Origin: a virus
DNA length: 48,922 nt
IMG/VR virus record: IMGVR_UViG_3300017917_001155
Span: 1-48,922 of that record
Reading direction: 5' to 3' (one strand)
The notes below the pieces were generated by a model, which worked only from the letters and a program-made list of their open reading frames with translations, had not been told where the DNA came from and made no database searches. Every line of letters begins with the position of its first letter. The stretch's first letter is position 1. Shown here one piece after another: positions 12,763 to 47,155 of the stretch. The position numbers and the translations under genes are program-made.

Positions 12763-12767
12763 ACAGG

Positions 12768-12773
12768 TATTTA
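12768..12773 (-). promoter_or_regulatory. Late promoter core, Zn-HNH gene (5-base gap)
   Basis: Minus-strand ATAAATA, exactly 5 bases to ATG 12762; no ribosome site. Confidence 0.65.
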
Positions 12774-12834
12774 TAACCGCCCTTTTCTTGCCCTTTTCTT
12801 GACGTTATAACGGGCTATTTTAACGAACCTACGC

Positions 12835-12840
12835 TAAATA
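12835..12840 (+). promoter_or_regulatory. Late promoter core, gp18
   Basis: CTAAATAT, 27 bases before the gp18 ATG, followed by an AAAGGAG ribosome site. Confidence 0.65.
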
Positions 12841-12867
12841 TTATGAGCAATAAAGGAGACCAATAAA

Positions 12868-15800
12868 ATGGCTTTAACTTCCCCAGGCGTACAGGTTTCT
12901 GTAATCGACGAAAGTTTTTACACACCTGCTGAACCCGGCACACGACCACTATTCATCGTTGCGTCAGCAGCCAACAAGACCAATGCTTCAGGCACTGGCA
13001 CAGCACAAGGCACATTAGCCACAAATGCTGGTATTGTATATACAGTAACAAGTCAACGCGAACTAGCAGACTTGTTCGGAGATCCATCTTTCAAAGTGGA
13101 CAGTAATAATAATCCTATTCATGCGGGTGAACTTAATGAATACGGTTTACAAGCAGCCTACAGTTTCTTAGGTGTTGCTAATTCTGCATTAGTTGTACGT
13201 GCAGATATTGATTTAAATGCATTGACTCCGCAGGCAGAAGCACCAGGCGGTGATCCACAAGACGGCACATTCTGGTTGGACACAACAACTTCAATTTGGG
13301 GTATTCAACAATGGAACGGCGCATCAACAGATAGTATTGGTGGTCAAAGTTTTAGTGCAAAAACTCCTTTAGTTGTGTTAGATACTGCTAGATTAAGCGG
13401 TGGAGCGCCATTGCCTACAGTTGGTACAGTTGGGGACTACGCTGTTACTGCTGGCGACGATCCTGATGGAACACATATTGTTGGAATTTATTATAAAAAT
13501 CGTGATAATCAGTGGGTAAAAGTTGGTAGTGATCAGTGGATTGCTAGCCATCCTGTTGTAATTTCGGGTGCTATTAGTGCTACCGTTACAGGAACTTTTG
13601 AAATTAACGGCCTTGACGTTGCACCTCTGTCTATATCGGCAGCAGATATTGCAACTGCCATTGACGGAGTAACTGGTGTCATTGCAAAACTAGTAAATGG
13701 CAAAATTGAAGTTTACTCAGACGGTTCAGTTGACTCTCTAGTATTTTCTGGTGCTGCCACATTTGGCTTTCCAGACGGAGAATATTTTGCACCTAAATTA
13801 ACAATAGCACCTCACACACAAGTTCCTGCTTATAAGAGCAAGGACAGTGAGCCACGTCCAACTGGTTCTGTATGGATTAAAACAACAGAGCCTAATCAAG
13901 GTGCTCGTTGGAGAGTTAAAAAGTACAACGGCAACACACAGTTGTGGGAAACTATTCCTGCACCAATTTACGCTTCTAATGAAGCCGCAATTGCCGCATT
14001 AGATAAAACAGGTGGAGGTTTAAATATTCCACTTGACACAGTTTACGTTCAAACTAATTTCAACGGAGACATCGATGGCGATGCATTACCAGTAGCAGAA
14101 TTCCGTGTAATGCGTAGACGTGTAAGAGGTAAAACAGTAGTTACTTCTAGTAAAATTACTGGTATTACTGCAAACGCCAACGGCTGGGAGTTTAACATGC
14201 GAGTTAGCGGTATAAACGGCGCATTTACTCCAGTTCCTGTACAACTAGCAGCCACAACAAATGCTGCCTCAGATGCTACAGTTTTAGCCAATGCTATCAG
14301 TGCTGGTTTAGCCTCTGCAGGTGTTTCAACGGTTACTGCTGAAGTTGACAGTCAAAATAGACTGGTAATTACACATGCACAAGGCGGAGAAATATTCTTT
14401 TCAACAGCAACAGAAGGTTTGCTATCCGCTGATATTGTTGCACAAATTGGTTTAACCAGTGACCGCGGTGTTTATGACGCACCCGGTGAAGATAATATGT
14501 ATGATTATGTTGCCAGCAACTGGATAGCAATGACAATTACTCCAGATACTGCAACTCAGATTCTACAAAGTTATTATATTTCTGCTGATGATCCTAAGAC
14601 ATTAGTAGCAGATGGTACTTTATGGTACAGCAGTATTGTAGACCAACCAGATATCTTAATTCATAATGGAAATACATGGGTTGGTTATCAAAACTACGAC
14701 CACGATGGTGCAGGTTCAGCAGGCGAAACAGATCCTAACGGTCCGCTAGTCAGTGCTTCACAGCCTACAAAGCAAAGTGATAACACAGATTTAGTTGAGG
14801 GCGATCTATGGATTGACACCAGCGACATTGACAATTATCCTGTGATTAACAGATATACTAACGGTAAGTGGGTAACTGTTGATAATTCAGATCAAACAAC
14901 CGAAAACGGTATTTTATTTGCTGATGCACGTTGGGCAGTTAACGGTGGAACATCAACAGCACAAACAAATAGTACAATTCAAGAACTTTTAGTAAGCAAT
15001 TTCTTAGATACAGATGCTCCAGATCCGGCACTATATCCAAAAGGTATGTTGTTGTTTAATTTACGTCGTAGTGGTTTTAACGTTAAGAAATTCGTAAGAA
15101 ATTACGTTAACCTCGAAACAGAAAATCAGCGTTATGATGCTGGCAATACACCTAACGGTGACGATTGGGTATCTGGTCAAGGACAAAGTGGATACTATCC
15201 ACATCGTTGGGTAACAGAGTCTGGTAACCAAGCAGATGGCAGCGGTTCATTTGGCCGTAAAGCACAACGTAAAGTTATCATCCAGAGTCTACAGGCTGTA
15301 ACTAACAGCAATCAAGCAATTCGTGACACAGAGCGTAACACATTTAACCTATTGGCCTGCCCAGGCTATCCTGAGTTAATTGGCGAGATGATCACATTGA
15401 ACTACGATCGCGGCTTAACAGCATTTGTAGTTGGCGATACTCCAGCACGTTTACGTCCAGATGCTACAACAATTAATAACTGGGGTACAAACCTAGCAGG
15501 AGCTCTACAAGACGATGACACTGGTTTAGTCAGCAGTGATGAATACTTAGGTGTTTTCTATCCATGGGGCTTTACAAGTGACAACGCAGGACGCGATATC
15601 GCTGTTCCACCAAGTCACATGATCCTACGCATGATTGCTCTAAGCGATCAAGTTTCTTATCCATGGTTTGCACCAGCAGGTACACGTCGTGGCGGTATTA
15701 CTAATGCAACAGCAGTTGGTTATATCAGCGATGAAGGCGAGTTTGTATCAGTTGCTCTAAACGAAGGTCAACGCGATACACTATACAATGTTAAAGTTAA

Positions 15801-16194: not shown

Positions 16195-16199
16195 GCGAA

Positions 16200-16205
16200 T
16201 AAATA
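16200..16205 (+). promoter_or_regulatory. Late promoter core, gp19
   Basis: ATAAATAA, 20 bases before the gp19 ATG, followed by CGGAG. Confidence 0.6.
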
Positions 16206-16225
16206 AGAATAACGGAGAATAAACA

Positions 16226-16852
16226 ATGGCTATTTCAACACTAAGCAAACTATCAGTACCGTTGGCCAGTGACCAATCAGCAAGCGCACAAGGCATGCTG
16301 ATGCCTAAACTGCAATACAGATTCCGTGTTGCGTTTGAAAACTTTGGCGTCAGCACTCCGACAACTGAGTTAACAAAACAAGTTATCGATTGCACAAGAC
16401 CTAATTTAAGTTTTGAGGACATCGAACTTGCAGTATATAACAGTAAAGTACGTTTAGCAGGTCGTCATACATGGGAAAACATCACTGTTAACCTACGTGA
16501 CGATGCTTCAGGTCAAGTACAAAAACTAGTTGGCGAGCAATTACAGAAGCAGTTCGACTTCTTTGAGCAGGCTAGTGCAGCCTCAGGTATCGATTACAAG
16601 TTTACAACACGTATCGAAATTCTAGACGGTGGTAACGGTGCTAACGTGCCAAACGTACTAGAAACTTGGGAAGTATATGGTTGCTACTTACAGTCAGCAA
16701 ACTACAACACACTAAACTATGCAACAAGTGATCCTGTAACAGTATCATTAACAATACGTTATGACAACGCAGTACAAAGCCCACGTGGCACTGGTGTTGG
16801 TACAGCAGTAGGACGCGGTCTTGGTGCTCTAGCAACAGGCGGCGGCGCATAA
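16226..16852 (+). CDS. gp19: Tail tube protein gp19
   Basis: 208 residues (T4: 163). The start SxLSKLSVPL, the core YRFRVAFENFGV, LTKQVIDCTRPNLSFEDIELAVYNSKVRLAGRHTWE, then VTVSLTIRYDNAVQ match the gp19 tube family. It polymerises as stacked hexameric rings inside the sheath. The ~20-residue Gly-rich end is longer than in T4. It follows gp18 by 31 bases with its own ATAAATA core (16199-16205) and a CGGAG ribosome site, allowing high late expression. A strong terminator follows. Confidence 0.94.
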   Translation: MAISTLSKLSVPLASDQSASAQGMLMPKLQYRFRVAFENFGVSTPTTELTKQVIDCTRPNLSFEDIELAVYNSKVRLAGRHTWENITVNLRDDASGQVQKLVGEQLQKQFDFFEQASAASGIDYKFTTRIEILDGGNGANVPNVLETWEVYGCYLQSANYNTLNYATSDPVTVSLTIRYDNAVQSPRGTGVGTAVGRGLGALATGGGA

Positions 16853-16868
16853 TCCAACCCGGGAGTGT

Positions 16869-16895
16869 AAAAAGGCTGCTTCGGCAGCCTTTTTT
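16869..16895 (+). terminator. Rho-independent terminator after gp19
   Basis: GGCTGC / GCAGCC stem with a UUCG tetraloop closed by C-G, flanked by an A-run and followed by six T. It ends the gp18-gp19 transcript and insulates the next gene. Confidence 0.92.
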
Positions 16896-16922
16896 ATTAT
16901 CTGATAGGTTTAAAGGGGTGGA

Positions 16923-16928
16923 TAAATA
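16923..16928 (+). promoter_or_regulatory. Late promoter core, tube-like paralogue (5-base gap)
   Basis: ATAAATAT, exactly 5 bases before ATG 16934, after the gp19 terminator; no ribosome site. Confidence 0.7.
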
Positions 16929-16933
16929 TTATT

Positions 16934-18376
16934 ATGGCCAAATTTTTCAAAAACTTTTTATCTAATGTAGGGCAAGGTGTAACTAATCCTAAAGGAAATT
17001 TAGGAGATTTTGCACATGCTAACAGACTATTTGTACAGAGCAATTATAGACTTGCTCCTAAACAAAAGTTTTTATACCACTGTGTTTTTAATATAAATCC
17101 TGCGGTAAAAGGCAAGTTTCAAAGTCTCAGCAATGGCGCCAGTGCTATAAACATGTTAGTAAAAAGTGTAGACTTACCTAAATTTAAAGTTTCAACAGAT
17201 TTAGCATATCAGTATAATCGTAAAAAACAAGTACATACAAAGATTGAATATGATCCAGTAACTGTGACTTTTCATGATGATAATTTAGGTCTTACTACCG
17301 GATTATGGAGTAGTTACTATGGTTACTACTTTGCAGATTCAAGTCACGGTGCTAGTCAAGGTTCCTTGCCAGCACTGGGTAGTGCAGGATTTGGCGGCAC
17401 AAAGTTAGGCGGCATTATCAGCACAGCATCCAGTGTTTTAAACTTTGTAAGAAATTTAGGTAAAGGCACAAACAGAGCCAGTGTGTTAGGTTCTGCAAAT
17501 CCTGGAACTCCTGCGGCGTATGCCAACAACACATACAAAGGCGAGAATTTAAATAAATTTCGTTACGGTTTAGACAACGGCAGCAGTGTGCCTTTCTTCA
17601 CCAGCATACAAATATTTCAGATGGGTCGAAGAAGTTATCAAAGTTTTACATTGATTAATCCTAAAATTGTATCAATGAGTCACGATAATCTTTCATACGC
17701 AGAAGGAGCCGCCGTTACACAGAATACTATGAGTATAGTGTATGAAGCAGTAATCTATGGTCAAGGTGCAGTTAAACGTGGCAATCCTACAGGGTTTGGT
17801 ACAGAGTATTACGACCAAACTCCTAGCCCGTTAAGCATTCTAGGCGGCGGAACAAGAAGCCTATTCGGCCAAGGCGGTGTATTAGGTGGTATTTCAGATA
17901 TTCTTGGAGATCTCAGTGATCCAGCAGTACGCAACAATCCATTTGCTTTATTTGGTACACTGGTTAAAGGCGCAAATGTTATTAATAATGCTAAGAAGTT
18001 AAACAAAGAAGGTATACGTCAAGAAGGTTATGGTTTGATTACAGGTGCTATTACCGCAGCCACCGGCGTAAATGTCAGCGGTGTAGCCAACGTTGCTTTC
18101 CCTAAGAGCGGCGGTAACGGTCAAACACAAACAACTAGTGCATTGGCTCCTAGAGAAAGCGCAGTAAAAAACGAACCTAGTAATGGAGATAAAAATTTAA
18201 TTAAAAACACTGCTGGTGCACTGGATAGTCTGACTAATCTTGTTGTATCAAAAGGCGCAGTGCCGCCAGGTCCGAATGCTCGCGCACAAACGCAGGCATT
18301 GTTAGATTCTGGAAGAAACACTATAGTAAACGGACTAGCACAGAAAGTAGCAGATCAAGTTAAAGGTACAGCATAA
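16934..18376 (+). CDS. Tail-tube-like paralogue (gp19/gp54-type virion protein)
   Basis: 480 residues. The N-terminal ~260 residues show a tube-like pattern: F-x-Y-H-C-V-F-N-I-N, then VKSVDLPKFKVS, YDPVTVTFHDD, LINPKIVSMSHDNLSYAEG and TMSIVYEAVIYGQG, comparable with gp19/gp54-type proteins that set inner-tail geometry. The C-terminal ~200 residues are Gly/Ala/Asn-rich and low in complexity. It may be a tube initiator (gp54-like) or a second tube component; the exact role is inference. TAAATA (16923-16928) lies 5 bases before the ATG with no ribosome site, predicting a leaderless late mRNA. The start of the next gene overlaps its stop. Confidence 0.75.
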   Translation: MAKFFKNFLSNVGQGVTNPKGNLGDFAHANRLFVQSNYRLAPKQKFLYHCVFNINPAVKGKFQSLSNGASAINMLVKSVDLPKFKVSTDLAYQYNRKKQVHTKIEYDPVTVTFHDDNLGLTTGLWSSYYGYYFADSSHGASQGSLPALGSAGFGGTKLGGIISTASSVLNFVRNLGKGTNRASVLGSANPGTPAAYANNTYKGENLNKFRYGLDNGSSVPFFTSIQIFQMGRRSYQSFTLINPKIVSMSHDNLSYAEGAAVTQNTMSIVYEAVIYGQGAVKRGNPTGFGTEYYDQTPSPLSILGGGTRSLFGQGGVLGGISDILGDLSDPAVRNNPFALFGTLVKGANVINNAKKLNKEGIRQEGYGLITGAITAATGVNVSGVANVAFPKSGGNGQTQTTSALAPRESAVKNEPSNGDKNLIKNTAGALDSLTNLVVSKGAVPPGPNARAQTQALLDSGRNTIVNGLAQKVADQVKGTA

Positions 18377-18747: not shown

Positions 18748-19178
18748 GAAAATTTGCACAAGGCAGATTCGAATTAAAACATCCGGAAAAGTATATTGGT
18801 AAAAAAACTCCTCTCTATAGAAGCAGTTGGGAGTGGGCATTTATGCAATTCTGCGACAATAATCCTGCCATAGAGCATTGGGCCAGTGAAGCAGTACGGA
18901 TACCTTACAGAGATCCGTTAACAGGTAAACAGACAACTTACGTGCCTGATTTTTTTATACAATACGTAGATAAAAACGGACGCAAACACGCAGAAGTTGT
19001 GGAAGTAAAACCTGCTAACCAAACTATTAAAGAACGTGTAGGACGTAATAAAATTAATCAAGCACATTTTGTAAAAAATATGGCAAAATGGGAAGCCGCT
19101 CGTGCATGGTGTAAACAACAGGGTTTATATTTTCGTATAGTGTCTGAAAATGATATCTTCCATAACGGAAAGCGATAA
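18744..19178 (+). CDS. gp4: Head completion protein gp4 (nuclease-like)
   Basis: 144 residues (T4: 150). It carries YRSSWEWAFMQFCDNNPAIEHWASEAVRIPY, then YVPDFFIQY and AEVVEVKPANQT, the T4 gp4 layout. S-W-E, P-D-F and E-V-K form a PD-(D/E)xK nuclease arrangement. gp4 is needed late in head completion before tail joining. It overlaps the previous gene by ATGA and lies directly upstream of the small terminase gene, consistent with a packaging/head-finishing cluster. Confidence 0.85.
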   Translation: MRKFAQGRFELKHPEKYIGKKTPLYRSSWEWAFMQFCDNNPAIEHWASEAVRIPYRDPLTGKQTTYVPDFFIQYVDKNGRKHAEVVEVKPANQTIKERVGRNKINQAHFVKNMAKWEAARAWCKQQGLYFRIVSENDIFHNGKR

Positions 19179-19185
19179 GTACAGT

Positions 19186-20733: not shown

Positions 20734-20780
20734 ACGCCGTAGGCGTTCTTTCAAATAGGCTCGTCGGAGCCTATTTTTTT
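20734..20780 (+). terminator. Tandem hairpin terminator before gp17
   Basis: A small hairpin (ACGCC-GTA-GGCGT, 20734-20746) is followed by a perfect 10-bp stem AAATAGGCTC / GAGCCTATTT (20753-20776) with a GTCG loop and a T-tract. It ends the gp16 transcript immediately before the gp17 late promoter. Confidence 0.9.
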
Positions 20781-20783
20781 CAG

Positions 20784-20789
20784 TAAATA
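20784..20789 (+). promoter_or_regulatory. Late promoter core, gp17 (6-base gap)
   Basis: GTAAATAC, 6 bases before the gp17 ATG, after a strong terminator. Confidence 0.65.
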
Positions 20790-20795: not shown

Positions 20796-22388
20796 ATGGC
20801 AAAAGTCTTAGACGGTGTCTTAACCAAGAAGGCACATAAACAGGAAAGGTTTACTGAACAGCAGATTCAGGATCTGGCTGCCTGTGCGGACCCAGTAGAA
20901 GGGTACTTGTACTTTGCCAAAAACTTTTTTTACATACAGCACCCAACTCGTGGTAAAGTAAAATTTGAACCGTTCGAGTACCAATTAAGGTTGATGCATA
21001 GTTATCACCACTATCGATTTAACATCAACATGATGCCACGTCAAAGTGGTAAAACTACTTGTGCCGCAGGTTACTTGCTATGGTATGCTATGTTTCATCC
21101 GGATCAAACTATCCTGGTTGCCGCACACAAATACACAGGTGCACAGGAAATCATGCAACGTATCCGTTATGGATATGAATTGTGCCCTGATTATATTCGC
21201 TGTGGTGTTACTAACTATAACAAGGGTAGTATTGAATTTGATAATGGCAGTCGTATAGTTAGTGCTACTACAACAGAAAATACAGGTCGTGGTATGAGTA
21301 TTTCATTACTATACTGTGACGAGTTTGCTTTCGTACAACCTAACATTGCTGAAGAATTCTGGACATCAATATCCCCAACACTAGCAACTGGTGGTAAGGC
21401 GATTATTACATCAACACCCAACAGTGATGAAGATACATTTGCTATTATTTGGAAAGAAAGCCAGAAAAAGTTTGACGAGTTTGGCAACGAACAAGAAATG
21501 GGTGTTAACGGATTTCACGGCTTCCGTGCAGAATGGTGGGAACATCCGGATCGTAACGATGACTGGAAAGAACAGGAATTAGGTCGTATCGGAGAAGAAC
21601 GATTCCGCCGCGAATATGGGTGTGAGTTTTTAATTTTTGATGAAACACTGGTCAATAGTATTGTGTTGTCAAATTTAGAAGGTGTAGAACCTATAATGAA
21701 AATGGGTCAGTGTCGTTGGTATAAACAGCCTAAAGACGATATGATCTACGTTATTGCCTTAGACCCTGCATTGGGCACAGGTGGCGACAACGCCGCTATA
21801 CAAGTATTTGAATTACCTACCATGGACCAGGTAGCAGAATGGCAACATAACGAAACTCCCATAGAAGGGCAGATAAAAATACTCAAAGATATATGTCGTT
21901 ATATTGCAGAACAAACTCCTAAAGCCAGCGGATCAAATATATACTGGAGTGTTGAAAATAACACCTTAGGCGAAAGTGCTCTTATAGTCATCAAAAACGT
22001 AGGGGAAGAAAACATACCTGGAATGTTTATAGCAGAACCGATACGTAAAGGACATGTACGTAAATTCCGTAAAGGATTTAATACTACACATAGAACTAAA
22101 ATTTCTGCTTGTAGTAGGTTAAAACACTTGATTGAATCAGGCAAGATGAAAATCAAGTCAAAAGTGCTTATCTCTGAGCTAAAAGCGTTTATTGCACATG
22201 GAATTACGTTTAAAGCAAAAAGCGGAGAAACTGACGATTTAGTCAGTGCTTTATTACTAACAGTACGCATGACTGCTGTTATGGCAGATTGGGACCAGCG
22301 TGTTTTCGAACTTATGAGCGGGAAAGTCGACGATGAAGACGGAGATTTTGAGCCGCCCATGCCTATTTTCATTTCCAGCGGATTCTAA
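20796..22388 (+). CDS. gp17: Terminase large subunit gp17
   Basis: 530 residues (T4: 610). ATPase domain: Walker A MPRQSGKTT (~80-88), Walker B LLYCDEFAF (~170-178), coupling motif TSTPN. Nuclease domain (RNase H fold): ALDPALGTGGD (~323-333), VENNTLGESA, and ETDDLVSALLL near the end give the metal-binding acidic residues. It packages DNA through the portal and cuts concatemers. A late-promoter core (20784-20789) lies 6 bases before the ATG after a strong terminator, so the message is probably leaderless. Confidence 0.96.
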   Translation: MAKVLDGVLTKKAHKQERFTEQQIQDLAACADPVEGYLYFAKNFFYIQHPTRGKVKFEPFEYQLRLMHSYHHYRFNINMMPRQSGKTTCAAGYLLWYAMFHPDQTILVAAHKYTGAQEIMQRIRYGYELCPDYIRCGVTNYNKGSIEFDNGSRIVSATTTENTGRGMSISLLYCDEFAFVQPNIAEEFWTSISPTLATGGKAIITSTPNSDEDTFAIIWKESQKKFDEFGNEQEMGVNGFHGFRAEWWEHPDRNDDWKEQELGRIGEERFRREYGCEFLIFDETLVNSIVLSNLEGVEPIMKMGQCRWYKQPKDDMIYVIALDPALGTGGDNAAIQVFELPTMDQVAEWQHNETPIEGQIKILKDICRYIAEQTPKASGSNIYWSVENNTLGESALIVIKNVGEENIPGMFIAEPIRKGHVRKFRKGFNTTHRTKISACSRLKHLIESGKMKIKSKVLISELKAFIAHGITFKAKSGETDDLVSALLLTVRMTAVMADWDQRVFELMSGKVDDEDGDFEPPMPIFISSGF

Positions 22389-22399: not shown

Positions 22400-23971
22400 A
22401 TGAAAGATTTAAGCACGATTTCCAGCGATTTATTCAATAAAATCCGCAGTCGTTTTTCTGATATAAAAATCGGAGATGACAAAGGAGCCTTAACCAACGA
22501 CGAAACTAAGGCAAGATTTTTTGATGTAAATTTCACTGCTGGCGGTCAAGATTTAGGCAGAGTTAACATCAAGATCGATGAAAAGTCGTTGACAGTGATC
22601 TATAACGAATCCATGTTAGACAATGTGTCGTCAGACACTAAAAATAATTGGTATGGATTCCTTAAAGAATTACGTCAATTTTCACGTAGCAATTTGTTGA
22701 ACTTTGACACCAGAGATATAACAAAATCTAATTTAGATAAAAGAGATTACCAATACCTAGCCAAGGATACCGGAGAATTAAAAATGAGTGAATCAAGATT
22801 GTTTGGAACTAGCAAAACCAGTTTCCAAGATATAGGCGAAGCCAAAATTATTGTCAAGCACAGCGCACCTGTAAATGTAGAAAATCCTGCAGGGCGTACA
22901 CAGCGTATTGAAAGCATTTATATTGAAAGTGCTAATGGCGAACGTTTCCGATATCCACATCGTCATTTAAACGGTGCTAGAGCAATGGCACGTCATGTGG
23001 CTAATGGCGGCACAGCATACGATACTATTGGTCAATATATTTCCGGATTAAGCGAAGAGATTGGTAAATTACGTCAGTTCAAGCAATACACTCAGCGTAC
23101 AGGTGTAATGGCTGAAGCGTTAGGCGACATTACAGAACAAGTGGCCGGCAGAATTGATTCTATTAAATTAGAAATTGCCGCCTTACAGCGTCAACAATAT
23201 TACGAAGCATTTGCAGAAAGTTTTCAACCACGTGAAACTGTAGAAGTACCAGAAGATGTAATGAGTGGTTGGGTAGACGCTTTAACTATTAAAACATTTA
23301 ACGAAGAATTAAAATCTGTATTCCCTTACATTTATAGTTTAGTTAAAGAAAAGCAGGAACAAGGTTTGGGTTACGAGGATTTAGTTCAAGAAGCAACTTG
23401 CCCAGAATGTCACTGCGATCCTTGCGAATGTGATGATGAAAAAACAGAAAGCAGTGATATGTTCTCTGAATTTGAAAGCACTGTGGACGAATTGGCTTCT
23501 CCTGAATTTGAAAAAACAGTTCAAGAAGAACCCAATGAAGGCAACGAATTTGCACAGAAAGTACAGCAACTCAAAGCACAAGGTGCTAAACCAGGCACCA
23601 AATTTAAAACCAGCGATGGCGAAGAACACACATTAAAAGATGCCATTGAAGCCGCTGGTATGCAATTAACTGACTTTTGGAATGAACAGGAATTGGCAGA
23701 AATGCAACCTCAACGTCAGGCAGTACCGCAAGAAGTAGTTGAATTCATTGCCAGCATGTATGATCGTGGCACAGGTACTTTTCCTAAAGGCGAAGAAGGT
23801 GTTAAAATTGCTGTAGAAAAGAAGTTTGGTGAGCAAGCCGCACAATTTGCCAACTATGTAGTAGAAAAACTTTCAGCCAAAGCAGAACCACAAGTACAAG
23901 AACAACCAGTACAACAGGAAGATCCTGCTATGAGCGAACTAGTTCGTATTCGTAGTCTGGCTGGAATGTAA
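22400..23971 (+). CDS. Large hypothetical virion-associated protein downstream of gp17
   Basis: 523 residues, not assigned to a family. Residues ~150-280 (IIVKHSAPVNVENPAGRTQRI, PHRHLNGARAMARHVANGG, YISGLSEEIGKLRQF) look like a folded domain. A CPECHCDPCEC cluster at ~334-344 is a possible zinc site. The region after it is Glu/Gln-rich, likely disordered, and includes a KTSDGEEHTLKDAIEAAG segment. TAAATA (22389-22394) stands 5 bases before the ATG without a ribosome site, so it is predicted to be a leaderless late gene. A structural or assembly role is inferred from late expression and position. Confidence 0.7.
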   Translation: MKDLSTISSDLFNKIRSRFSDIKIGDDKGALTNDETKARFFDVNFTAGGQDLGRVNIKIDEKSLTVIYNESMLDNVSSDTKNNWYGFLKELRQFSRSNLLNFDTRDITKSNLDKRDYQYLAKDTGELKMSESRLFGTSKTSFQDIGEAKIIVKHSAPVNVENPAGRTQRIESIYIESANGERFRYPHRHLNGARAMARHVANGGTAYDTIGQYISGLSEEIGKLRQFKQYTQRTGVMAEALGDITEQVAGRIDSIKLEIAALQRQQYYEAFAESFQPRETVEVPEDVMSGWVDALTIKTFNEELKSVFPYIYSLVKEKQEQGLGYEDLVQEATCPECHCDPCECDDEKTESSDMFSEFESTVDELASPEFEKTVQEEPNEGNEFAQKVQQLKAQGAKPGTKFKTSDGEEHTLKDAIEAAGMQLTDFWNEQELAEMQPQRQAVPQEVVEFIASMYDRGTGTFPKGEEGVKIAVEKKFGEQAAQFANYVVEKLSAKAEPQVQEQPVQQEDPAMSELVRIRSLAGM

Positions 23972-27124: not shown

Positions 27125-27912
27125 GGTCGCATTCCAGGTATCACAGTCCGTTTAAACTGCTGATTATCCCTATCAATAGTTTCAAATAATTTTAAATCGA
27201 GCCCTAGTTGTTTTACAAGAGCATCTAGGGCTTTTGTATCTTTAGGCAGACATGCTCCGCCATACCCTCGAAGTTGTTCATTAACTGCAAGGTAGTGCGG
27301 ACTACTTTGACCTCTTAGCAAATATGCATCTTTGATTTTTTCATAGTCTGCGCCTAATCGATCACAGACTTCGTACATAGCGTTGGCAAATACAACTCGT
27401 AGTGCATTATAAACGTTTGAATAGTATTTCAAAACTTCTGCTTCTGTAGGAGTCATCATTACTTTATTTTTTGGAAAATATCCATGAGACTCGACCACTA
27501 AATCGTACATCCAGGCTTCGTGGCAACCTACTACTAATACTTCGTGATTAGTAACAAAATCTTCTGTGGCACACCATTCTCTTAAAAATTCAGGAACAAA
27601 ACACATGTTTAATGTTGTTTCGGATATTAATTGTTCTGTAGTACCAGGAACGCTGGTAGATTTTAATGCTACTAGACCTTTATAATTTAAATTTTCTAAT
27701 TTCTGTATTGTATCTCGAACAATGCTTAAATCACAACTACCATCTTCAGCAGACGGTGTTGGCACACAAACATAAACGATATCTGTATCTTTGACAACAG
27801 ATAATAGTGTGTTTAATTTTGGATCATGGGCAAATACGTTATGCCCTAATAATTCAAATCCTTTAAGGCAAGCACCGCCTACTACGCCAACACCTATAAT
27901 ACCTATGTTCAT
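27121..27912 (-). CDS. UDP-glucose/GDP-mannose 6-dehydrogenase-like enzyme, short form
   Basis: 263 residues; the family is usually ~390-450. The N-terminal Rossmann motif GIIGVGVVGGA, VPTPS and SVPGTT, the central domain with FVPEFLRE, and the catalytic Cys motif GYGGACLPKDT (~218-228) are all present. The C-terminal nucleotide-sugar-binding domain is essentially missing. Full-length members oxidise a sugar nucleotide to the uronic acid using two NAD. The active Cys and PKD are kept, so it may work as a compact enzyme on a different substrate. It overlaps the epimerase gene by 4 bases. Confidence 0.85.
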   Translation of the reverse strand: MNIGIIGVGVVGGACLKGFELLGHNVFAHDPKLNTLLSVVKDTDIVYVCVPTPSAEDGSCDLSIVRDTIQKLENLNYKGLVALKSTSVPGTTEQLISETTLNMCFVPEFLREWCATEDFVTNHEVLVVGCHEAWMYDLVVESHGYFPKNKVMMTPTEAEVLKYYSNVYNALRVVFANAMYEVCDRLGADYEKIKDAYLLRGQSSPHYLAVNEQLRGYGGACLPKDTKALDALVKQLGLDLKLFETIDRDNQQFKRTVIPGMRP

Positions 27913-28787
27913 AAAGTCTCCAAAGTACGTCGTAGACCTTCTCTAATAGATATTCTAGGACTGTATTCAACTAATCTTTTTAATTTTGTTATATCTGGGC
28001 ATCGTCGACTAACACTGCCCTTAGGTGCATCTTCCAATATTAATGAACCCCTTATATTAGATATTTCTAACATAATTTCTGCTACTTCTTTAATTGAAAG
28101 TTCTTCTTCGTTTCCAACATTTAAAATTTCATTACGGCAACTAGAACTAAAAATTATATTACTAGTAATTTCTACAGCGTCACTGATATACATAAAACTT
28201 CTAGTATTACGCCATCCGTTAAGTGTTAAATCACCACTTTTAATTCTTGAATAAAATTCTTGTATAAAATGATCGCGTTGTCCTGGGCCGTAGACATTAT
28301 GATATCTAATAATAGTATATTCTTGATTTAATTGCTGGTTGGCTGCTATGATTTGTAGTTCGTTAACTATTTTACTACCACCGTAACTCCATCGTGGATT
28401 GGTAACGTCTTCTACTACTAATGGTACTGTTTCGTCTGTGGGAACAGGCCACTGAAACTTATCTACTGCACCAGCATAACTTTCGCAAGTACCACTGAAT
28501 ATAAATCTTTCAACTTTTCCGGCATAACGGTCTAATAAATGTTGTGTGGCTAATATGTTATCTCTGATAACATCTAAAGGACGTTCGTAAAAATATTTTG
28601 TTCCATTGAATGCAGCCAAATGAACAACAATATCAACATCTGGTAATAACTCTGCATCTTCTTTATTAGATAAATCAAACCCTAATTTTTTGTCCGCACG
28701 TATAACATGATGCCCTAAGTTATCAAGATATCGGCATAAATGGCTGCCGATAAAACCAGAACTGCCGGTGACTAAAATTGTTTTCAT
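27909..28787 (-). CDS. NAD-dependent sugar-nucleotide epimerase/dehydratase (extended SDR)
   Basis: 292 residues. GSSGFIGSHLCRYL at the N-terminus (NAD-binding GxxGxxG), then VVHLAAFNGT, a Ser-Gly-Thr site, WSYGGSKIVNE with the YxxxK catalytic pair (~134-138), YHNVYGPGQRD and SFMYISDAVE, all typical of the GalE/RmlB family. It is first in the minus-strand pair with the dehydrogenase. On the minus strand TAAATA (28793-28798) is exactly 5 bases from the ATG, predicting a leaderless late mRNA. It is divergent from the nucleotidyltransferase-cupin gene. Confidence 0.9.
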   Translation of the reverse strand: MKTILVTGSSGFIGSHLCRYLDNLGHHVIRADKKLGFDLSNKEDAELLPDVDIVVHLAAFNGTKYFYERPLDVIRDNILATQHLLDRYAGKVERFIFSGTCESYAGAVDKFQWPVPTDETVPLVVEDVTNPRWSYGGSKIVNELQIIAANQQLNQEYTIIRYHNVYGPGQRDHFIQEFYSRIKSGDLTLNGWRNTRSFMYISDAVEITSNIIFSSSCRNEILNVGNEEELSIKEVAEIMLEISNIRGSLILEDAPKGSVSRRCPDITKLKRLVEYSPRISIREGLRRTLETL

Positions 28788-28792: not shown

Positions 28793-28798
28793 TATTTA
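28793..28798 (-). promoter_or_regulatory. Late promoter core, epimerase (5-base gap)
   Basis: Minus-strand GTAAATAT, exactly 5 bases before ATG 28787. Confidence 0.68.
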
Positions 28799-28816: not shown

Positions 28817-28822
28817 TAAATA
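28817..28822 (+). promoter_or_regulatory. Late promoter core, nucleotidyltransferase-cupin gene (5-base gap)
   Basis: ATAAATAG, exactly 5 bases before ATG 28828; divergent from the epimerase promoter 18 bases away. Confidence 0.68.
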
Positions 28823-28827: not shown

Positions 28828-29574
28828 ATGAATAAAATTGTACTGATAACCGGCGGTTTTGATCCCGTACACAGCGGACATATTGCCTATATAAATGCCG
28901 CTAGAAAATTAGGAGATATCCTTGTAATAGGGTTAAATTCTGACGATTGGTTAACTCGTAAAAAAGGAGCACCGTTTATGCCGTATACAGAACGCTCTAC
29001 TGTACTTAAAAACATAAAAGGTGTTGATTATGTAATTGACTTTGATGACACAGATGGCAGTGCTAAACATGCTATTTGGATGGTTCGTCAAAGTTATCCG
29101 CAGGATCGAATTATTTTTGCCAACGGTGGGGATAGAACAACCAATAACATTCCAGAAATGGATTTCGAAGACAATAATTTAGAATTTGTATTTGGTGTAG
29201 GTGGTGAGGACAAAAAGAATTCAAGCAGTTGGATTTTACAAGAATGGAAGGCTCCTAAAACAATTCGTCCTTGGGGATATTATCGTGTGCTACACATAGT
29301 AGGTGACAGTGTTAAAGTTAAAGAACTTACAGTGGACCCAGGCAAATCGCTTAGTATGCAACGACACAAATATCGCTCAGAGTTTTGGTTTGTAGCAGAA
29401 GGCATTGCTGGAAATAATTGGGACTACGGCGGTAAAAAGATAAAACCTTATAAAACAGAAGTAATAATGCCTGGAGAATGGCATCAACTACATAATCCTA
29501 CAGATCAACCTTTGAAAGTTATAGAAATACAATACGGCGAACGCTGTGAAGAAGAGGACATAGAAAGACGATGA
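28828..29574 (+). CDS. Nucleotidyltransferase-cupin fusion (sugar-phosphate activation)
   Basis: 248 residues with the start at 28828; an upstream in-frame ATG at 28768 would run through the promoter. Residues 1-~135: cytidylyltransferase-like fold with ITGGFDPVHSGHIAYI (HxGH at 15-18) and the N-G-G-D-R block in place of the usual ISSTxxR. Residues ~150-245: cupin of the phosphomannose-isomerase/RmlC type (LTVDPGKSLSMQRHKYRSEFWFV, MPGEWHQLHNP). The likely role is sugar-phosphate nucleotidylation plus isomerisation/epimerisation. TAAATA lies 5 bases before the ATG. Confidence 0.85.
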   Translation: MNKIVLITGGFDPVHSGHIAYINAARKLGDILVIGLNSDDWLTRKKGAPFMPYTERSTVLKNIKGVDYVIDFDDTDGSAKHAIWMVRQSYPQDRIIFANGGDRTTNNIPEMDFEDNNLEFVFGVGGEDKKNSSSWILQEWKAPKTIRPWGYYRVLHIVGDSVKVKELTVDPGKSLSMQRHKYRSEFWFVAEGIAGNNWDYGGKKIKPYKTEVIMPGEWHQLHNPTDQPLKVIEIQYGERCEEEDIERR

Positions 29575-32803: not shown

Positions 32804-33468
32804 TATTCTTTTCCTTTCTCTAAATCGCGTTTTACAAAATATCTATATCTTTCTAAATATCGTTCTTTAAACTTTTGTGACCCTTTTGACATAAAAAATA
32901 AACTTTTACCGTTATGCTTTCCTATAGAAACCCACACAGCACGATCAACTTCAACAAATTGAAATTCTTCAGCCATTTGCTTTAAAACTTCTTGGTCCCA
33001 CCCATCAGACCATTTGTTTATATCTTTTTCAAGAAGTCTTTTAGCAAACTCCTGCCTAAATCTGTTATCTTTAAATGCAATAAATCCAGCCATCCATCTA
33101 CGATCAACTTTAACGTGTCTTAAAACAGAATAGGTTTCAAACAATATTGATAATTCAAATTTGCTAAAAGGGGCAACACATAATGCATCGCAATCTGTAA
33201 CTAATACACGTTCATTGTTTTTAAATTTAGATGCTACTGCTAAAAATCTTACTGCCTGCAAATATCCTAATTTTTGATCATCGTTTACAAATTCTGTTTC
33301 TTCTGTAGTATAGTCTACACTATCTAATTTTATAACGTCAGGAGAATTAACTAAATGGCAGTGTAATTTGATCCAAGGAACATGATATTGTAATGTTCGA
33401 AGATAAGTAATCCCCCAATTGTTATAATAATTTTTATCACAGGCAATTAATAAGTGAAAATCATTCAT
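32803..33468 (-). CDS. Putative GT-A-type glycosyltransferase 2
   Basis: 221 residues. FHLLIACDKNYYNNWGITYLRTLQYH start, NNERVLVTDCDALCVAPFS with a DCD (DxD) site at ~93-95, RWMAGFIAFKDN, SDGWDQEVLKQM, and a closing KSLFFMSKGSQKF, comparable with GT8-like proteins. It overlaps its neighbours by 1-4 bases in the minus-strand run. It belongs to the glycan cassette; specificity is unknown. Confidence 0.7.
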   Translation of the reverse strand: MNDFHLLIACDKNYYNNWGITYLRTLQYHVPWIKLHCHLVNSPDVIKLDSVDYTTEETEFVNDDQKLGYLQAVRFLAVASKFKNNERVLVTDCDALCVAPFSKFELSILFETYSVLRHVKVDRRWMAGFIAFKDNRFRQEFAKRLLEKDINKWSDGWDQEVLKQMAEEFQFVEVDRAVWVSIGKHNGKSLFFMSKGSQKFKERYLERYRYFVKRDLEKGKE

Positions 33469-34250
33469 TTATATAAACTTTGCTCTCTTTTAAAAATTTC
33501 TAGATCTTTACGTTTGCCTTTGGCACTCCAAATAGCACTTTCAGGCCGCATAGCCCAATCAATGTATGCCATTGGCAGCAATCCTTTATTAAATTTTTTA
33601 ACTAATATGTCTAATACAAACTGATCTAAGAACCAATACAAGTCATCGTTCTCTATGCTTGTTTTAATCTCACTAGCATATAATTTTAAAAATTCATCCG
33701 ACTTTAGAGAATCATTAAGCAATATGGCTCCTGCTAAATGGGTGCCGTCTTTAGGTTTTTCGTATAAATGAAAATCGGCACTCGGTAGGTTATACGAAAA
33801 AGATTTTCGAACCAACCCATCTACATCTATGGCTAGACAATGTTGCGATTGTTGTTTGATTTCAGCAAGTCGTATAAATCTAGCACAGGCAAAGTATGTT
33901 TGTTTAACTAATTTTAATAATTCTACCGGACCTAGGGTATCGCCCTTCTTTCTCATTTGTCGTTGTCTGTCGTTTGTAAATTCTGTTCTTTTATACCACA
34001 AATCTCTGATAGATTCAAAAACTTTATCATCAATATACTCGTAGGTACACGATACATTTGGTTTACTACAAAACTCTATTTGATCTTGTCGTGGATTATA
34101 GATATGTATATGTACTCCGTAACTAGGAGTGTTCTTTAATACGCTATTAATCAGTGATTTTGCATATAAATCAAAGTATTTCTCGTCTGCGGCTGCATAA
34201 ATGAAAAAATTTGTTTGATCTAATTTTCCTTGCAACGGTGGTATAATCAT
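33465..34250 (-). CDS. Putative GT-A-type glycosyltransferase 3
   Basis: 261 residues with the start at 34250. An in-frame ATG at 34268 would place the start beyond the promoter and directly abut the opposite ATG at 34269, so 34250 is preferred. NFFIYAAADEKYFDLYAKSLINSVLKN start, CLAIDVDGLVRKSF (DxD), THLAGAILLND, W-F-L-D-Q-F-V-L-D, and AIWSAKGKRKDLEIF near the end follow the same plan as the gene at 32803. A minus-strand TAAATA lies 7 bases upstream. Confidence 0.7.
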   Translation of the reverse strand: MIIPPLQGKLDQTNFFIYAAADEKYFDLYAKSLINSVLKNTPSYGVHIHIYNPRQDQIEFCSKPNVSCTYEYIDDKVFESIRDLWYKRTEFTNDRQRQMRKKGDTLGPVELLKLVKQTYFACARFIRLAEIKQQSQHCLAIDVDGLVRKSFSYNLPSADFHLYEKPKDGTHLAGAILLNDSLKSDEFLKLYASEIKTSIENDDLYWFLDQFVLDILVKKFNKGLLPMAYIDWAMRPESAIWSAKGKRKDLEIFKREQSLYK

Positions 34251-34251: not shown

Positions 34252-34265
34252 GTTAAATATTTAAC
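34252..34265. promoter_or_regulatory. Palindromic bidirectional late promoter
   Basis: GTTAAATATTTAAC is a perfect 14-base palindrome holding overlapping TAAATA cores on both strands, between ATG 34250 (minus) and ATG 34269 (plus). Confidence 0.6.
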
Positions 34266-40989: not shown

Positions 40990-40994
40990 AAATA
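40989..40994 (+). promoter_or_regulatory. Late promoter core, structural gene at 41018
   Basis: ATAAATAC, 23 bases before ATG 41018; it overlaps the start codon of the divergent minus-strand gene. Confidence 0.55.
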
Positions 40995-41017
40995 CTTAAT
41001 AAAGTTCATTGATTATA

Positions 41018-42085: not shown

Positions 42086-42094
42086 AATGTCTGC

Positions 42095-43173: not shown

Positions 43174-44651
43174 TTACATGGGGAATTAGTGGTAACAGCC
43201 ACGATGCGGCTATAGCCGTATTTCATGACAAGCAGTTAGTCTATGCAGGACATAGTGAACGCTACAGTCGAGTTAAAAATGATGGCGACTTAGATACTAC
43301 ACAGATCGAATATCTTAAAAAGAAATTCGGAGATCCTGATCGTGTAGTATGGTATGAAAAGCCATGGGCTAAAACATTTCGTCAACTTGAAGCAGGACAG
43401 GGATGGCGGTGGAGTGAAAACAATGTCAAAGAATACCTACGTAAGTTTGGCATTAGAGCTCCTATAACTTACAAATGGCATCACCACAGTCATGCGGCTG
43501 CCGGATATTATACCAGCGGTTTTGACAACGCCACAGTGGTAGTCATAGACGCTATAGGTGAATATCAAACACTGAGTTTTTGGAGAGGGCAAGGTAACGG
43601 TTTAACACAACTGTGGAGTCAAGGATATCCGGACAGCGTAGGACTTTGGTATAGTGCTATGACTGATCGCATCGATTTAAAAGCCAATGAAGAAGAATAT
43701 ATTCTCATGGGCATGGCTGCCATGGGCGACCCTAATCGATTTACTGCTGAAATATTAGACGAATTTATTGGACTACACAGTATAGAAGAAAGTTGCAGTG
43801 TTATTAGATTAAAACATAATCTACACAGGGGCTGTCGTTGGTGGAAACCTGAACTAGGTATTGGCGATTATTTTGATGTTGCCGCAGGTACACAGGCTGT
43901 GTACGAAATTTTATTCCACAAAATATTACAGACTGCAAGGCATCTTAATGGCAGTGATAATTTAGTATTAATGGGTGGCTGTGCTCTTAACTGTGTGGCC
44001 AATCCTATAGCATATCAATATTTTAAAAATGTTTGGATTATGCCTAATCCAGGCGATGCAGGCAGTGCTGTAGGTGCAGTATTGGCAGATTGGCAGGAAC
44101 ATATTAAATGGCCAGGTCCTTATCTCGGCACAGAAATCAAACACAGTGAAGACAATAACAGTGGCATTGTAGATTATCTTTTGGAACATAAAATATGTGG
44201 GTTGGCTAGAGGACGAGCAGAGTTTGGTCCAAGAGCATTGGGCAACAGAAGTTTAATTGCAGACCCTAGAGGCGATGATGTCAAAGATAGATTAAACAAG
44301 ATCAAACAACGTCAGGACTTCCGCCCATTTGCACCAGCAGTATTGGCCGAACATGCCTCTAGTATATTTGTCATGCCCACACAGCATACACCTTATATGC
44401 AGTATGCCGTTCGTTGTCTACGACCCGATCTATATCCTGCTATTGTACACACGGATGGTACTAGTCGTGTGCAGACTGTTACCCGAGAAGATAATCCAGA
44501 GTTTCATGCATTGTTGACAAAATGGTACGAACGCACAGGCTGTCCTATGTTGGTCAATACCAGTTTGAACATCAAAGGTGAGCCTATAGTCAACAACGAA
44601 TTGGACGCACAGCGTTGGCAAGAACGGTATGGAATTGCAATTTTTCATTGA
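43170..44651 (+). CDS. Carbamoyltransferase (NodU/CmcH/TobZ family)
   Basis: 493 residues. N-terminal ASKHA-like domain: ITWGISGNSHDAAIAVFHDKQLVYAGHSERYSRVK, then WHHHSHAAAGYY (metal/carbamoyl-adenylate site) and LVLMGGCALNCVAN. C-terminal domain: GLARGRAEFGPRALGNRSLIADPR and QDFRPFAPAVLAEHA, ending MLVNTSLNIKGEPIVN. The family transfers carbamoyl from carbamoyl phosphate to hydroxyl groups of sugars or antibiotics. In this phage it may decorate a glycan or a modified base. Starts in an ATGA overlap with the tiny ORF. Confidence 0.93.
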   Translation: MITWGISGNSHDAAIAVFHDKQLVYAGHSERYSRVKNDGDLDTTQIEYLKKKFGDPDRVVWYEKPWAKTFRQLEAGQGWRWSENNVKEYLRKFGIRAPITYKWHHHSHAAAGYYTSGFDNATVVVIDAIGEYQTLSFWRGQGNGLTQLWSQGYPDSVGLWYSAMTDRIDLKANEEEYILMGMAAMGDPNRFTAEILDEFIGLHSIEESCSVIRLKHNLHRGCRWWKPELGIGDYFDVAAGTQAVYEILFHKILQTARHLNGSDNLVLMGGCALNCVANPIAYQYFKNVWIMPNPGDAGSAVGAVLADWQEHIKWPGPYLGTEIKHSEDNNSGIVDYLLEHKICGLARGRAEFGPRALGNRSLIADPRGDDVKDRLNKIKQRQDFRPFAPAVLAEHASSIFVMPTQHTPYMQYAVRCLRPDLYPAIVHTDGTSRVQTVTREDNPEFHALLTKWYERTGCPMLVNTSLNIKGEPIVNNELDAQRWQERYGIAIFH

Positions 44652-44676
44652 CCTTAAACAAGTTATCAAGTATAAT
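44648..44676 (+). promoter_or_regulatory. Sigma70-like promoter of gp41
   Basis: TTGACC (44648-44653), 17-base spacer, perfect TATAAT (44671-44676). Seven bases to ATG 44684. The -35 overlaps the stop codon of the carbamoyltransferase gene. No ribosome site is seen, so the message is probably leaderless. Confidence 0.75.
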
Positions 44677-44683
44677 ATAAAGT

Positions 44684-46135
44684 ATGACTACTAGACAAAA
44701 CACAGACTACGGATATGATATCCAAAAACTATATCTTGAAATGATGCTCAGTGATGCAGGTACATTTGTACGCTGTCAGAGTATTTTAGATCATACCCTG
44801 TTTGATCGTAGACTGCAAGATGCTGTGGAATTTGTCAGCAACTATGTCAGCGAACACAATGCACTGCCCACATTTGACATGGTACGTGCGGCTACAAAAA
44901 CTGAGCTCAATGATCCAGGCACACTCAAAGATGAACACTATGATTGGTTGCTCACAGACTTTGAAACGTTTACACGTCATAAAGGTCTAGAACGTGCTAT
45001 CTTAAAGAGTGCAGACTTACTGGAAGAAGGCAACTATGGTCCTGTGGAAGACATGATCAAGCAGGCAGTACAGGTAGGTTTACAAAAAGACCTAGGCACA
45101 GACTATTGGGCCGACCCTAAGGGTAGATTGGTAGGATTAAAAGATAAAAACGGGCAGGTTAAAACAGGTTGGGACACATTGGACAAGCGATTGTTTGGTG
45201 GTATGAACCGCGGAGAGTTGAATATCTTTGCAGGCGGTTCCGGTGCAGGTAAAAGTTTGTTCTTGGCCAATTTAGGTGTAAACTGGGCACTACAGGGTAT
45301 GAACGTAGTATATCTAACTCTAGAACTCAGTGAAGCACTGGTGAGTATGCGTGTGGATAGTATGACCACAGGTATTCCCACAAAAGAGATTTTCAAGGAT
45401 CTTGACAACGTGGAAATGAAAGTCAAGATGATTGGTAAGAAGTCAGGTGCTTTCCAAGTCAAGTACATGCCCAGCGGTAAAACTGCCAACGACATTCGTG
45501 CTTACTTGAAAGAGTATGAAATCAAAATGGATCGTAAAGTGGATGTGTTATTGGTAGACTACATGGACTTGCTACTGCCCATAAGCAAACGTATTTCAGC
45601 GGAAAACCTGTTTGTCAAGGACAAATATGTCAGTGAAGAATTGCGTAACTTGGCCATGGAAAAACAGTGTGTGTTCGTTACTGCGGCACAGTTGAATCGT
45701 GGTGCGGTAGAAGAAGTAGAGTTTGATCACAGTCATATTTCGGGTGGTCTAAGTAAGATTCAGACTGCGGACAACGTCATAGGTATCTTTACAAGTCGTG
45801 CTATGCGTGAACGTGGCAAGTATCAGATACAGTTGATGAAAACACGTAGTAGCAGTGGCGTGGGTATGAAGATTGATTTGGACTTTGATATTGACACACT
45901 GCGTATCACAGATCCTGGCATAGAAGGATCAGACGACTATAGACCCAAGAGCAGTAGTATTCTTGAAGATATCAAACGCAAAAGCACAGCCAGTGACATC
46001 ACAGACGTTGCAGCCAGTTCAGAAGCACAGGTGCCAGATCCTACAATAGGTGTGCCTTTGCCCAAGATACAGGCCAAGTCTGACTCAACTAAACTGCGTC
46101 AGTTCTTGAATAACTTAGGCGGCACAGACACTTGA
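44684..46135 (+). CDS. gp41: Replicative DNA helicase gp41
   Basis: 483 residues (T4: 475). DnaB-like RecA core: Walker A FAGGSGAGKSLFLANLG (~182-198), VVYLTLELSEALVSMRVDS, Walker B VDVLLVDYMDLLLP, FVTAAQLNRGAVEEV, SGGLSKIQTADNVIGIF, KTRSSSGVG (Arg finger region). It unwinds the fork and pairs with gp61. A near-consensus sigma70 promoter lies over the preceding stop and its expected start falls at the ATG. The last 37 bases overlap the minus-strand gene. Confidence 0.95.
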   Translation: MTTRQNTDYGYDIQKLYLEMMLSDAGTFVRCQSILDHTLFDRRLQDAVEFVSNYVSEHNALPTFDMVRAATKTELNDPGTLKDEHYDWLLTDFETFTRHKGLERAILKSADLLEEGNYGPVEDMIKQAVQVGLQKDLGTDYWADPKGRLVGLKDKNGQVKTGWDTLDKRLFGGMNRGELNIFAGGSGAGKSLFLANLGVNWALQGMNVVYLTLELSEALVSMRVDSMTTGIPTKEIFKDLDNVEMKVKMIGKKSGAFQVKYMPSGKTANDIRAYLKEYEIKMDRKVDVLLVDYMDLLLPISKRISAENLFVKDKYVSEELRNLAMEKQCVFVTAAQLNRGAVEEVEFDHSHISGGLSKIQTADNVIGIFTSRAMRERGKYQIQLMKTRSSSGVGMKIDLDFDIDTLRITDPGIEGSDDYRPKSSSILEDIKRKSTASDITDVAASSEAQVPDPTIGVPLPKIQAKSDSTKLRQFLNNLGGTDT

Positions 46136-47130
46136 TCCGCTTCAATGGTGTACTGTACACGCTGTTCTAATCTGGCTTTTCTCAGCCTACGCTCTCGCTG
46201 AGCGGCACTGGAAGGCAAAGGCTGTACTAGACGAGCATTAGGGTTATCTAATCTAATGGCTGAGTCTGGCACAGGCGAACGACCCGTGCGCCAATATTCA
46301 ATGCCCAAGGCCGCATGTTTCAATGACAGTTCCGCTAGGGGTATCTGCGCCAGTTCAAAATTAATGCCAAAACTTTCCCCGCGATGTAGCCAGTGTATGT
46401 TTTGATATTCAAACATTAGATACCACAGGTAGTGTGTGCTGAACCACTGAAAATCTGTGGCAAAGTCCCAGTCAGGGCGATGCTGTTGAATTTCTTTACG
46501 CACCTGTCTACAGGCCACAATTAATTTGTCAATGATTGCTTCACTGCTGGGTATGATTTCCATCCATTTTTTAGTGGGCCCATAGACATTGTCTCCGCCC
46601 ACAATGGGTCTACCGTTGTAGATGTTAATGCTCTTGGTGTAGAAATGATCTGGATCCATGCCATTTAACACGTCTGGATCCAGGGTATGATCCCAACGAC
46701 TGCGCACTATGTAGTCATAGTCCTGCAACTGATCACGCCAATGATCCACAGCAAAACAAAAGCCCAACAACTGTCCAAAGTACTTGCCAAAATGATAGCG
46801 TATGAGGCTGTTGACCGCAGGATCAGATCTATAGTCGGGCAGTGCGCCCTCATCGATAAATCTTTCACAGAGTTGATCAAACAGGGGGTCTTGATCCCTG
46901 TAGACATGTCGATCGCCCAGACGTTCCAGTATGCTGTCACGCAGTGCAAACTGTTGCTGTTGATGCTGATTGGGCTGTCGAACTTCGCTGTGATCAGTCC
47001 AGCAATAACTGAATTCAGCCCACTGACTGACCCTGGGGCTCAGTGCAAAACTGTGTTGATGTAAGTGATGTCCCTGCGGCACCATACGTGCATGCCCACT
47101 GCAGACCACTGCCACTTTATATGCGTCCAT
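46099..47130 (-). CDS. Putative glycosyltransferase-like protein
   Basis: 343 residues with the start at 47130 (VAVVCSGHARMVP N-terminus); an in-frame ATG at 47154 would lie across both promoters. A GT-A-like strand (YKVAVVCSGHAR), then DYDYIVRSRWDHTLDPDVLNG (R-x-R-x-D pattern seen in host-type glycosyltransferases) and NVYGPTKKWMEI. Gln/His-rich and GC-richer than most of the window. It likely acts on a surface glycan with the divergent SGNH hydrolase. TAAATA is exactly 5 bases from the ATG on the minus strand. Confidence 0.65.
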   Translation of the reverse strand: MDAYKVAVVCSGHARMVPQGHHLHQHSFALSPRVSQWAEFSYCWTDHSEVRQPNQHQQQQFALRDSILERLGDRHVYRDQDPLFDQLCERFIDEGALPDYRSDPAVNSLIRYHFGKYFGQLLGFCFAVDHWRDQLQDYDYIVRSRWDHTLDPDVLNGMDPDHFYTKSINIYNGRPIVGGDNVYGPTKKWMEIIPSSEAIIDKLIVACRQVRKEIQQHRPDWDFATDFQWFSTHYLWYLMFEYQNIHWLHRGESFGINFELAQIPLAELSLKHAALGIEYWRTGRSPVPDSAIRLDNPNARLVQPLPSSAAQRERRLRKARLEQRVQYTIEADQVSVPPKLFKN

Positions 47131-47135
47131 GATGA

Positions 47136-47150
47136 TATTTACCGTAAATA
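47136..47150. promoter_or_regulatory. Mirror-image divergent late promoters (5-base gap on each side)
   Basis: TATTTA-CCG-TAAATA: one core per strand with 3 bases between, each exactly 5 bases from its own ATG (47130 minus, 47156 plus). The whole intergenic stretch is 25 bases. Confidence 0.75.
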
Positions 47151-47155
47151 ACACT

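Follow-up and report, generated by a model that had tools for sequence, protein, structure and literature searches.

Late transcription in T4 is a textbook system whose mRNAs carry leaders with Shine-Dalgarno sequences. The stretch of viral DNA analyzed here (the window) is a 48,922-base IMG/VR fragment of 39% GC from the structural region of a T4-superfamily phage, and in it the hexamer TAAATA recurs directly upstream of genes, often exactly five bases from the ATG. This arrangement raises the question of whether late promoters are placed so that transcription begins on the start codon itself. Taking the window and its relatives together, we consider it very probable that T4-type late promoters 4 to 5 bases before the ATG direct transcription from its A and that these mRNAs undergo leaderless translation. 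The initial annotation had proposed such a reading, which gained support from the spacing of individual genes, the pyrimidine at −1, a pyrimidine-purine (Y-R) step past the hexamer, two terminators, and gp55 genes in relatives. These sequence patterns are the basis on which we infer leaderless translation, transcription late in infection, and the precise position of +1.

Counting both strands, the window holds 35 copies of TAAATA. Nineteen fall in the roughly 46 bases that precede the starts of its 52 called genes, 7 of them at exactly 5 bases (binomial P of about 2e-7). When upstream regions were shuffled, the mean at this distance was 0.07 and the maximum 3, with 7 never reached in 20,000 trials, and permuted hexamers averaged 0.36 at distance 5 in the window. 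All seven five-base genes listed in the initial annotation, along with one gene at six bases and two at seven, are present as placed, and the ribosome sites it assigned to gp18 and gp19 are there as well (Table 1). One additional TAAATA stands 9 bases before 34269(+). The same annotation reported that the five-base genes lack ribosome sites. We dropped this as separate support: TAAATA covers −11 to −6, the very place of a Shine-Dalgarno sequence, and at 16934 and 12762 purine-rich stretches do occur immediately 5' to it.

Table 1. Genes, TAAATA placements, and terminators in the window (distances are bases between hexamer and ATG)
Feature	Position	Strand	Gene and family context
Sheath gp18	start 12868	+	
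Tail tube gp19	start 16226	+	
Protein with tail-tube-like domain	16934-18376	+	
Head closure	start 18744		
Terminase gp17	20796-22388	+	
Portal-position structural gene	22400-23971	+	
SSB	start 24117		
TAAATA, 5 before ATG 12762(-)	12768..12773	-	Gene 12427-12762, 111 aa; 33/33 family members at 4-7 bases
TAAATA, 5 before ATG 16934(+)	16923..16928	+	Tail-tube-like domain gene 16934-18376; 56/57 family members
TAAATA, 6 before gp17 ATG, 20796(+)	20784..20789	+	gp17 20796-22388; 69/90 family members at 4-6
TAAATA, 5 before portal-position ATG, 22400(+), directly 3' of gp17 stop codon	22389..22394	+	89/90 family members
TAAATA, 5 before ATG 28787(-)	28793..28798	-	NAD-dependent epimerase, 27909-28787; 3/12 family members
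TAAATA, 5 before ATG 28828(+)	28817..28822	+	Cytidylyltransferase/cupin protein, 28828-29574; 9/20 family members
TAAATA, 5 before ATG 47130(-)	47136..47141	-	Gene 46099-47130
TAAATA, 5 before ATG 47156(+)	47145..47150	+	Gene 47156-47929; 3 contigs at 5-6 bases including window
TAAATA, 7 before ATG 9711(-)	9719..9724	-	Virion structural protein, 8089-9711; 15/18 family members at 5-7 bases, other 3 at 8
TAAATA, 7 before ATG 34250(-)	34258..34263	-	Gene 33465-34250
TAAATA, leadered, 27 before gp18 ATG (12868), AAAGGAG between	12835..12840	+	36/48 family members leadered, 0 leaderless
TAAATA, leadered, 20 before gp19 ATG (16226), CGGAG between	16200..16205	+	32/55 family members with promoter and Shine-Dalgarno, 0 leaderless
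Intrinsic terminator with T-rich tail; stem 11 bp, loop 4 bases	16869..16897	+	Between gp19 and 16934 promoter
Intrinsic terminator, 10-bp stem, T-run	20753..20780	+	Just 5' of gp17 promoter

We collected relatives through two query genes, gp17 yielding 80 loci and the portal-position gene 13. Twenty large contigs were examined over their full length, and families were set by protein similarity, independently of the motif. The distance survey took in ORFs of at least 80 codons in the window and its relatives (90 contigs, 2.15 Mb). For TAAATA-to-ATG distances of 0 through 13 bases, the counts were 2, 2, 1, 1, 85, 202, 31, 24, 12, 8, 5, 7, 3, and 3, or 287 cases at 4 to 5 bases versus 6 at 0 to 3 together; these counts are phylogenetically correlated and a few families give most of the cases, with distance 5 seen in 26 families. 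The spacing is bimodal, with the sharp peak at 4 to 5, a broad second hump at about 16 to 32, and avoidance of 9 to 13. Among ATGs in the 90 contigs that open no ORF, 7 to 25 TAAATA were found at distances 0 to 9 and the peak at 4 to 5 was absent. The initial annotation had called for such a count against shuffled sequence, in the whole genome and in relatives, and had staked its reading on a peak at five; the peak is there. An unbiased hexamer-by-position scan of 21 whole contigs (1323 ORF starts) ranked TAAATA at distance 5 first, with 76 occurrences versus 0.5 expected. After it came overlapping hexamers and then those of Shine-Dalgarno type, and the list also included a T-run at 14 and TAAATA at both 19 and 21. 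Eight GTG starts at distance 5 were considered as leaderless GTG genes and set aside, because six belong to the 19702 family, in which the real ATG lies 12 bases downstream and has a leader.

In T4, TATAAATA spans −13 to −6 (PMC1524935), so a gap of five bases puts +1 on the A of the ATG, and the geometry given in the initial annotation, with five bases between promoter and +1, agrees with that source. Genes for gp55-type late sigma factors were found in the large relatives G002, G003, and G004 (the window itself is a fragment); the clade protein has about 282 amino acids versus 185 for T4 gp55, so the T4 geometry is not guaranteed for the clade. A single phmmer search of the clade contigs with the T4 gp45 clamp gave no match, which divergence or incomplete contigs could explain. 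A pyrimidine precedes the putatively leaderless ATG in 153 of 159 cases at distance 5 and 70 of 74 at distance 4 (about 95%); for the corresponding positions of leadered promoters the figures are 51% and 55% (P = 3e-23 and 4e-11). Counted by family, the −1 pyrimidine occurs in 35/38 leaderless versus 122/292 other genes (P = 1e-9), and genes with Shine-Dalgarno sequences have A before the ATG in 44 to 49%. Leadered promoters, where no ATG constrains the sequence, have an excess of Y-R steps at 4/5 and 5/6 bases after the hexamer (70 and 85 of 191, versus 51 and 67 expected). The favored distances of 4 and 5 match these two favored start positions and point indirectly to a +1 located 4 to 5 bases past the hexamer.

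We propose that a gp55-like late sigma factor, acting with host RNA polymerase, would use promoters of the consensus GATAAATA. Where the hexamer lies 4 to 5 bases before the start codon, transcription would begin on the A of the ATG, and the ribosome would recognize the 5'-terminal AUG of the mRNA directly, without a Shine-Dalgarno sequence. Spacings of 6 to 7 bases would give a leader of 2 to 3 bases, although for these genes such a leader and no leader at all appear equally likely. The same promoter about 16 to 32 bases upstream, with a Shine-Dalgarno sequence in between, would produce the leadered mRNAs of other late genes. Consistent with a single promoter type, the flanking consensus GATAAATA, with GA before TAAATA, is identical in the leaderless and leadered classes, and the TAAATA core stands upstream of structural and packaging genes, as a T4-type late promoter would.

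Gene by gene, the placement is highly conserved. TAAATA lies 4 to 7 bases before the ATG in all portal-position family members except one at a contig edge (89/90), and it adjoins the ATG in 56/57 members of the 16934 family and 33/33 of the 12762(-) family. In the gp17 family it is present in 69/90, and most of the remainder show the one-base variant TAAGTA in that position or lie on truncated contigs. A subclade (L026, L032, L033, L034, L036, L037, L051, L056, L057, L063, and L066) carries TAAGTA 6 bases before gp17 and retains TAAATA at the portal-position gene. The leaderless placement was never seen in the sheath (0/48), tube (0/55), or SSB (0/67) families, and major capsid genes had a strong Shine-Dalgarno sequence in 5/5. 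The division into two classes of late mRNA drawn in the initial annotation therefore stands gene by gene. Its assignment of leaders to abundant proteins survives in part: capsid, sheath, tube, and SSB versus terminase and portal fit it, but the leaderless class also holds virion parts, namely the portal-position protein, the tail-tube-like protein, and a baseplate wedge subunit. Because baseplate and tail-tube-like genes are leaderless too, dosage is only one possible reason for the split. We tentatively suggest, with somewhat less than even confidence, that one late promoter in two fixed placements sets two modes of translation, with the leaderless set using a different ribosome pathway late in infection; under the same tentative scheme, capsid, sheath, and tube would form the leadered set, and portal, terminase, and others a leaderless set that is partly insulated by terminators.

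Such insulation is strong at two genes. The terminator before 16934 recurs in 46/48 distinct family members at dG <= -6 (45 at <= -9) and that before gp17 in 54/56 at dG <= -9, compared with 2 (gp17) and 0 (16934) in shuffled controls. A terminator lies within 75 bases upstream of 128/353 leaderless genes, versus 13/848 genes with Shine-Dalgarno sequences and 1/229 with leadered promoters. When sought upstream of all leaderless families, terminators were present in a majority of members in only 8/52; most of these families lack one. The argument from insulation is therefore strong chiefly at gp17 and 16934, whose mRNAs would hardly gain a leader from upstream transcription.

The hexamer might instead act in translation, as an A/U-rich stretch ahead of the start codon in leadered mRNAs, and be no promoter at all. 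It does occupy the position of a ribosome site, and A/U-rich starts are generally usable without a Shine-Dalgarno sequence. We nonetheless regard this reading as very improbable: the same hexamer and flanks recur 16 to 32 bases upstream of Shine-Dalgarno genes, the terminators just before the hexamer in two families end upstream transcription, a pyrimidine at −1 is a trait of start sites and not of ribosomes, and TAAATA is the T4 late promoter (PMC1524935). It is likewise highly unlikely that the promoter is real but the ATG beside it is bypassed in favor of an in-frame start further on that has a ribosome site. Possible downstream starts of this kind are found in 11/72 gp17 genes, a modest excess lying nearly all at codons 27 to 29, but gp17 is the only family with an excess. 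Elsewhere they are rare (portal 0/90, 9711 0/15, and 5/57 and 1/33 in the other two families), with a frequency much like that inside genes, near or under the 7.6% expected by chance. The residues directly after the gp17 ATG are conserved (K-S-L-D-G-V-L-T-K-K) and hence translated, the start is ATG in 262/262 leaderless cases from the five main families, and the annotation that others made of the SAR11 phage HTVC008M uses promoter-adjacent ATGs. The predicted transcribed regions contain no usable Shine-Dalgarno sequence, its place being taken by the promoter.

Two further explanations accept the promoter. Genome compaction might leave no room for it elsewhere, making the leaderless state a tolerated by-product with no regulatory role; the median distance from the gp17 stop to the portal-position start is 11 bases, and in the window very little intergenic DNA separates the genes of three divergent pairs. 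Lack of space does not explain the placement at gp17 and 16934, however, where roomy gaps (medians of 66 and 86 bases) hold a terminator and the promoter still abuts the ATG. This refutes compaction as the sole cause, the avoidance of distances 8 to 13 also speaks against it, and we think it unlikely as a full account. The portal-position gene, and others close behind a stop codon, might be translated mainly by reinitiation on read-through mRNA, with the adjacent promoter playing a minor part. Here the gp17 stop is followed by TAAATA and then the ATG with no terminator between, and with a gap of about 11 bases read-through may contribute to portal expression. As the main route, reinitiation seems quite unlikely to us, since it leaves the retention of TAAATA in 89/90 portal genes unexplained and is inapplicable to gp17, 16934, and the divergent genes.

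Transcription starting on the ATG would set these phages apart from T4 and several other phages. No clear TAAATA peak at 4 to 5 bases was found in T4, Syn9, S-SRM01, Cr30, or PA5oct, and any visible preferred distance was 20 to 28 bases. T4 late promoters (TATAAATA, gp55/gp33/gp45) resemble those of the window in hexamer, in the kinds of late genes served, and in the gp55-type sigma factor found in relatives, but T4 has 3 cases at distance 5 versus a control mean of 1.2, and its commonest distance is 28, which typically leaves enough space before a T4 late gene for a leader that carries a ribosome site. The cyanophage late promoters (NATAAATA; S-PM2, Syn9, and S-SRM01) belong to the same motif class (PMC2984593), but their distances are mostly 20 to 27 bases, with none at 4 to 5 in Syn9 and one at each in S-SRM01. 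PA5oct, a jumbo phage and the nearest isolate by gp17 (56%), has a similar gene order around gp17 and a terminator-like hairpin directly before it, but it has no TAAATA peak at 5, and its 9711 homologue is leadered with a ribosome site. At the PA5oct gp17 start (L178, 128846), the hairpin adjoins the ATG without a Shine-Dalgarno sequence or TAAATA, and another abutting promoter motif may be in use. A different abutting motif in this phage, TTGGAT at 6 bases (4 cases), offered too little support for a claim.

The closest parallel comes from the SAR11 pelagimyophage HTVC008M, which has 12 ORFs at exactly 5 bases, 1 at 4, and 0 at 6, many of them structural; wherever its annotation was read, the starts chosen by outside annotators were the ATGs beside promoters. 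Contigs related to HTVC008M peak at 5 with 49 cases, 29 of which come from one family, and the base before the ATG is a pyrimidine in 47/49. HTVC008M differs in being a distant lineage (gp17 about 31% identical) whose leaderless genes are mostly different, and the predicted leaderless placement is thus present in two distant lineages, the clade of the window and the SAR11 phages. Melnitz had 3 cases at distance 5 versus 0.6, with no clear peak. A small conserved protein of about 100 amino acids (MPNEHYEKYKDTIKKVARRNYRKR...) has TAAATA-N5-ATG in 29 pelagimyophage-type contigs, e.g., L249 9586(-), and a similar protein in Melnitz has it likewise.

Some giant phages are described as having leaderless transcripts. 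The paper on AR9 notes that phage transcripts in general often lack a leader (PMC5312081). Among bacteria, leaderless genes such as those of mycobacteria have the transcription start at the start codon and no Shine-Dalgarno sequence (PMC4633059); there the transcripts are the cell's own, whereas here a phage late-sigma promoter would be responsible. Leaderless late mRNAs of T4-like phages did not come up in our literature search, which covered subscription journals only in part and so leaves their absence from the literature unproven. In a large environmental clade and in SAR11 phages, the T4 late promoter seems to have been moved up to the start codon at a constant set of genes; if so, leaderless translation would be a routine part of their late gene expression. 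Knowledge of this placement would help in calling gene starts and promoters; prediction of middle and late promoters in pelagimyophages was unsuccessful (PMC7029224), and for late promoters the promoter-on-ATG geometry may account for the failure. Because HTVC008M is a cultured isolate, the leaderless reading is directly testable, and leaderless and leadered mRNAs from one promoter type offer a natural comparison.

Several arrangements around individual promoters deserve mention. On the minus strand at 12774-12800, repeated A-rich/GG units (AAAAAGGG...AAAAAGGG) lie upstream of the 12762(-) promoter, as they do in the relatives inspected. An HNH endonuclease gene (9714-10142, minus strand), equipped with a TATAAATA late promoter and a Shine-Dalgarno sequence of its own, sits between 9711(-) and its divergent neighbor. 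The relatives have a reverse TAAATA a short way upstream of their 9711 homologue, which suggests that a homing endonuclease gene was inserted here between divergent late promoters. At 47130-47156, opposite-strand hexamers stand 3 bp apart (TATTTA CCG TAAATA) between divergent genes whose ATGs are 25 bp apart, a space that would hardly hold two polymerases, so any one firing may serve either 47130(-) or 47156(+) but not both. A comparable divergent pair in HTVC008M consists of the DNA end protector at 18916(-) and the head closure gene at 18943(+).
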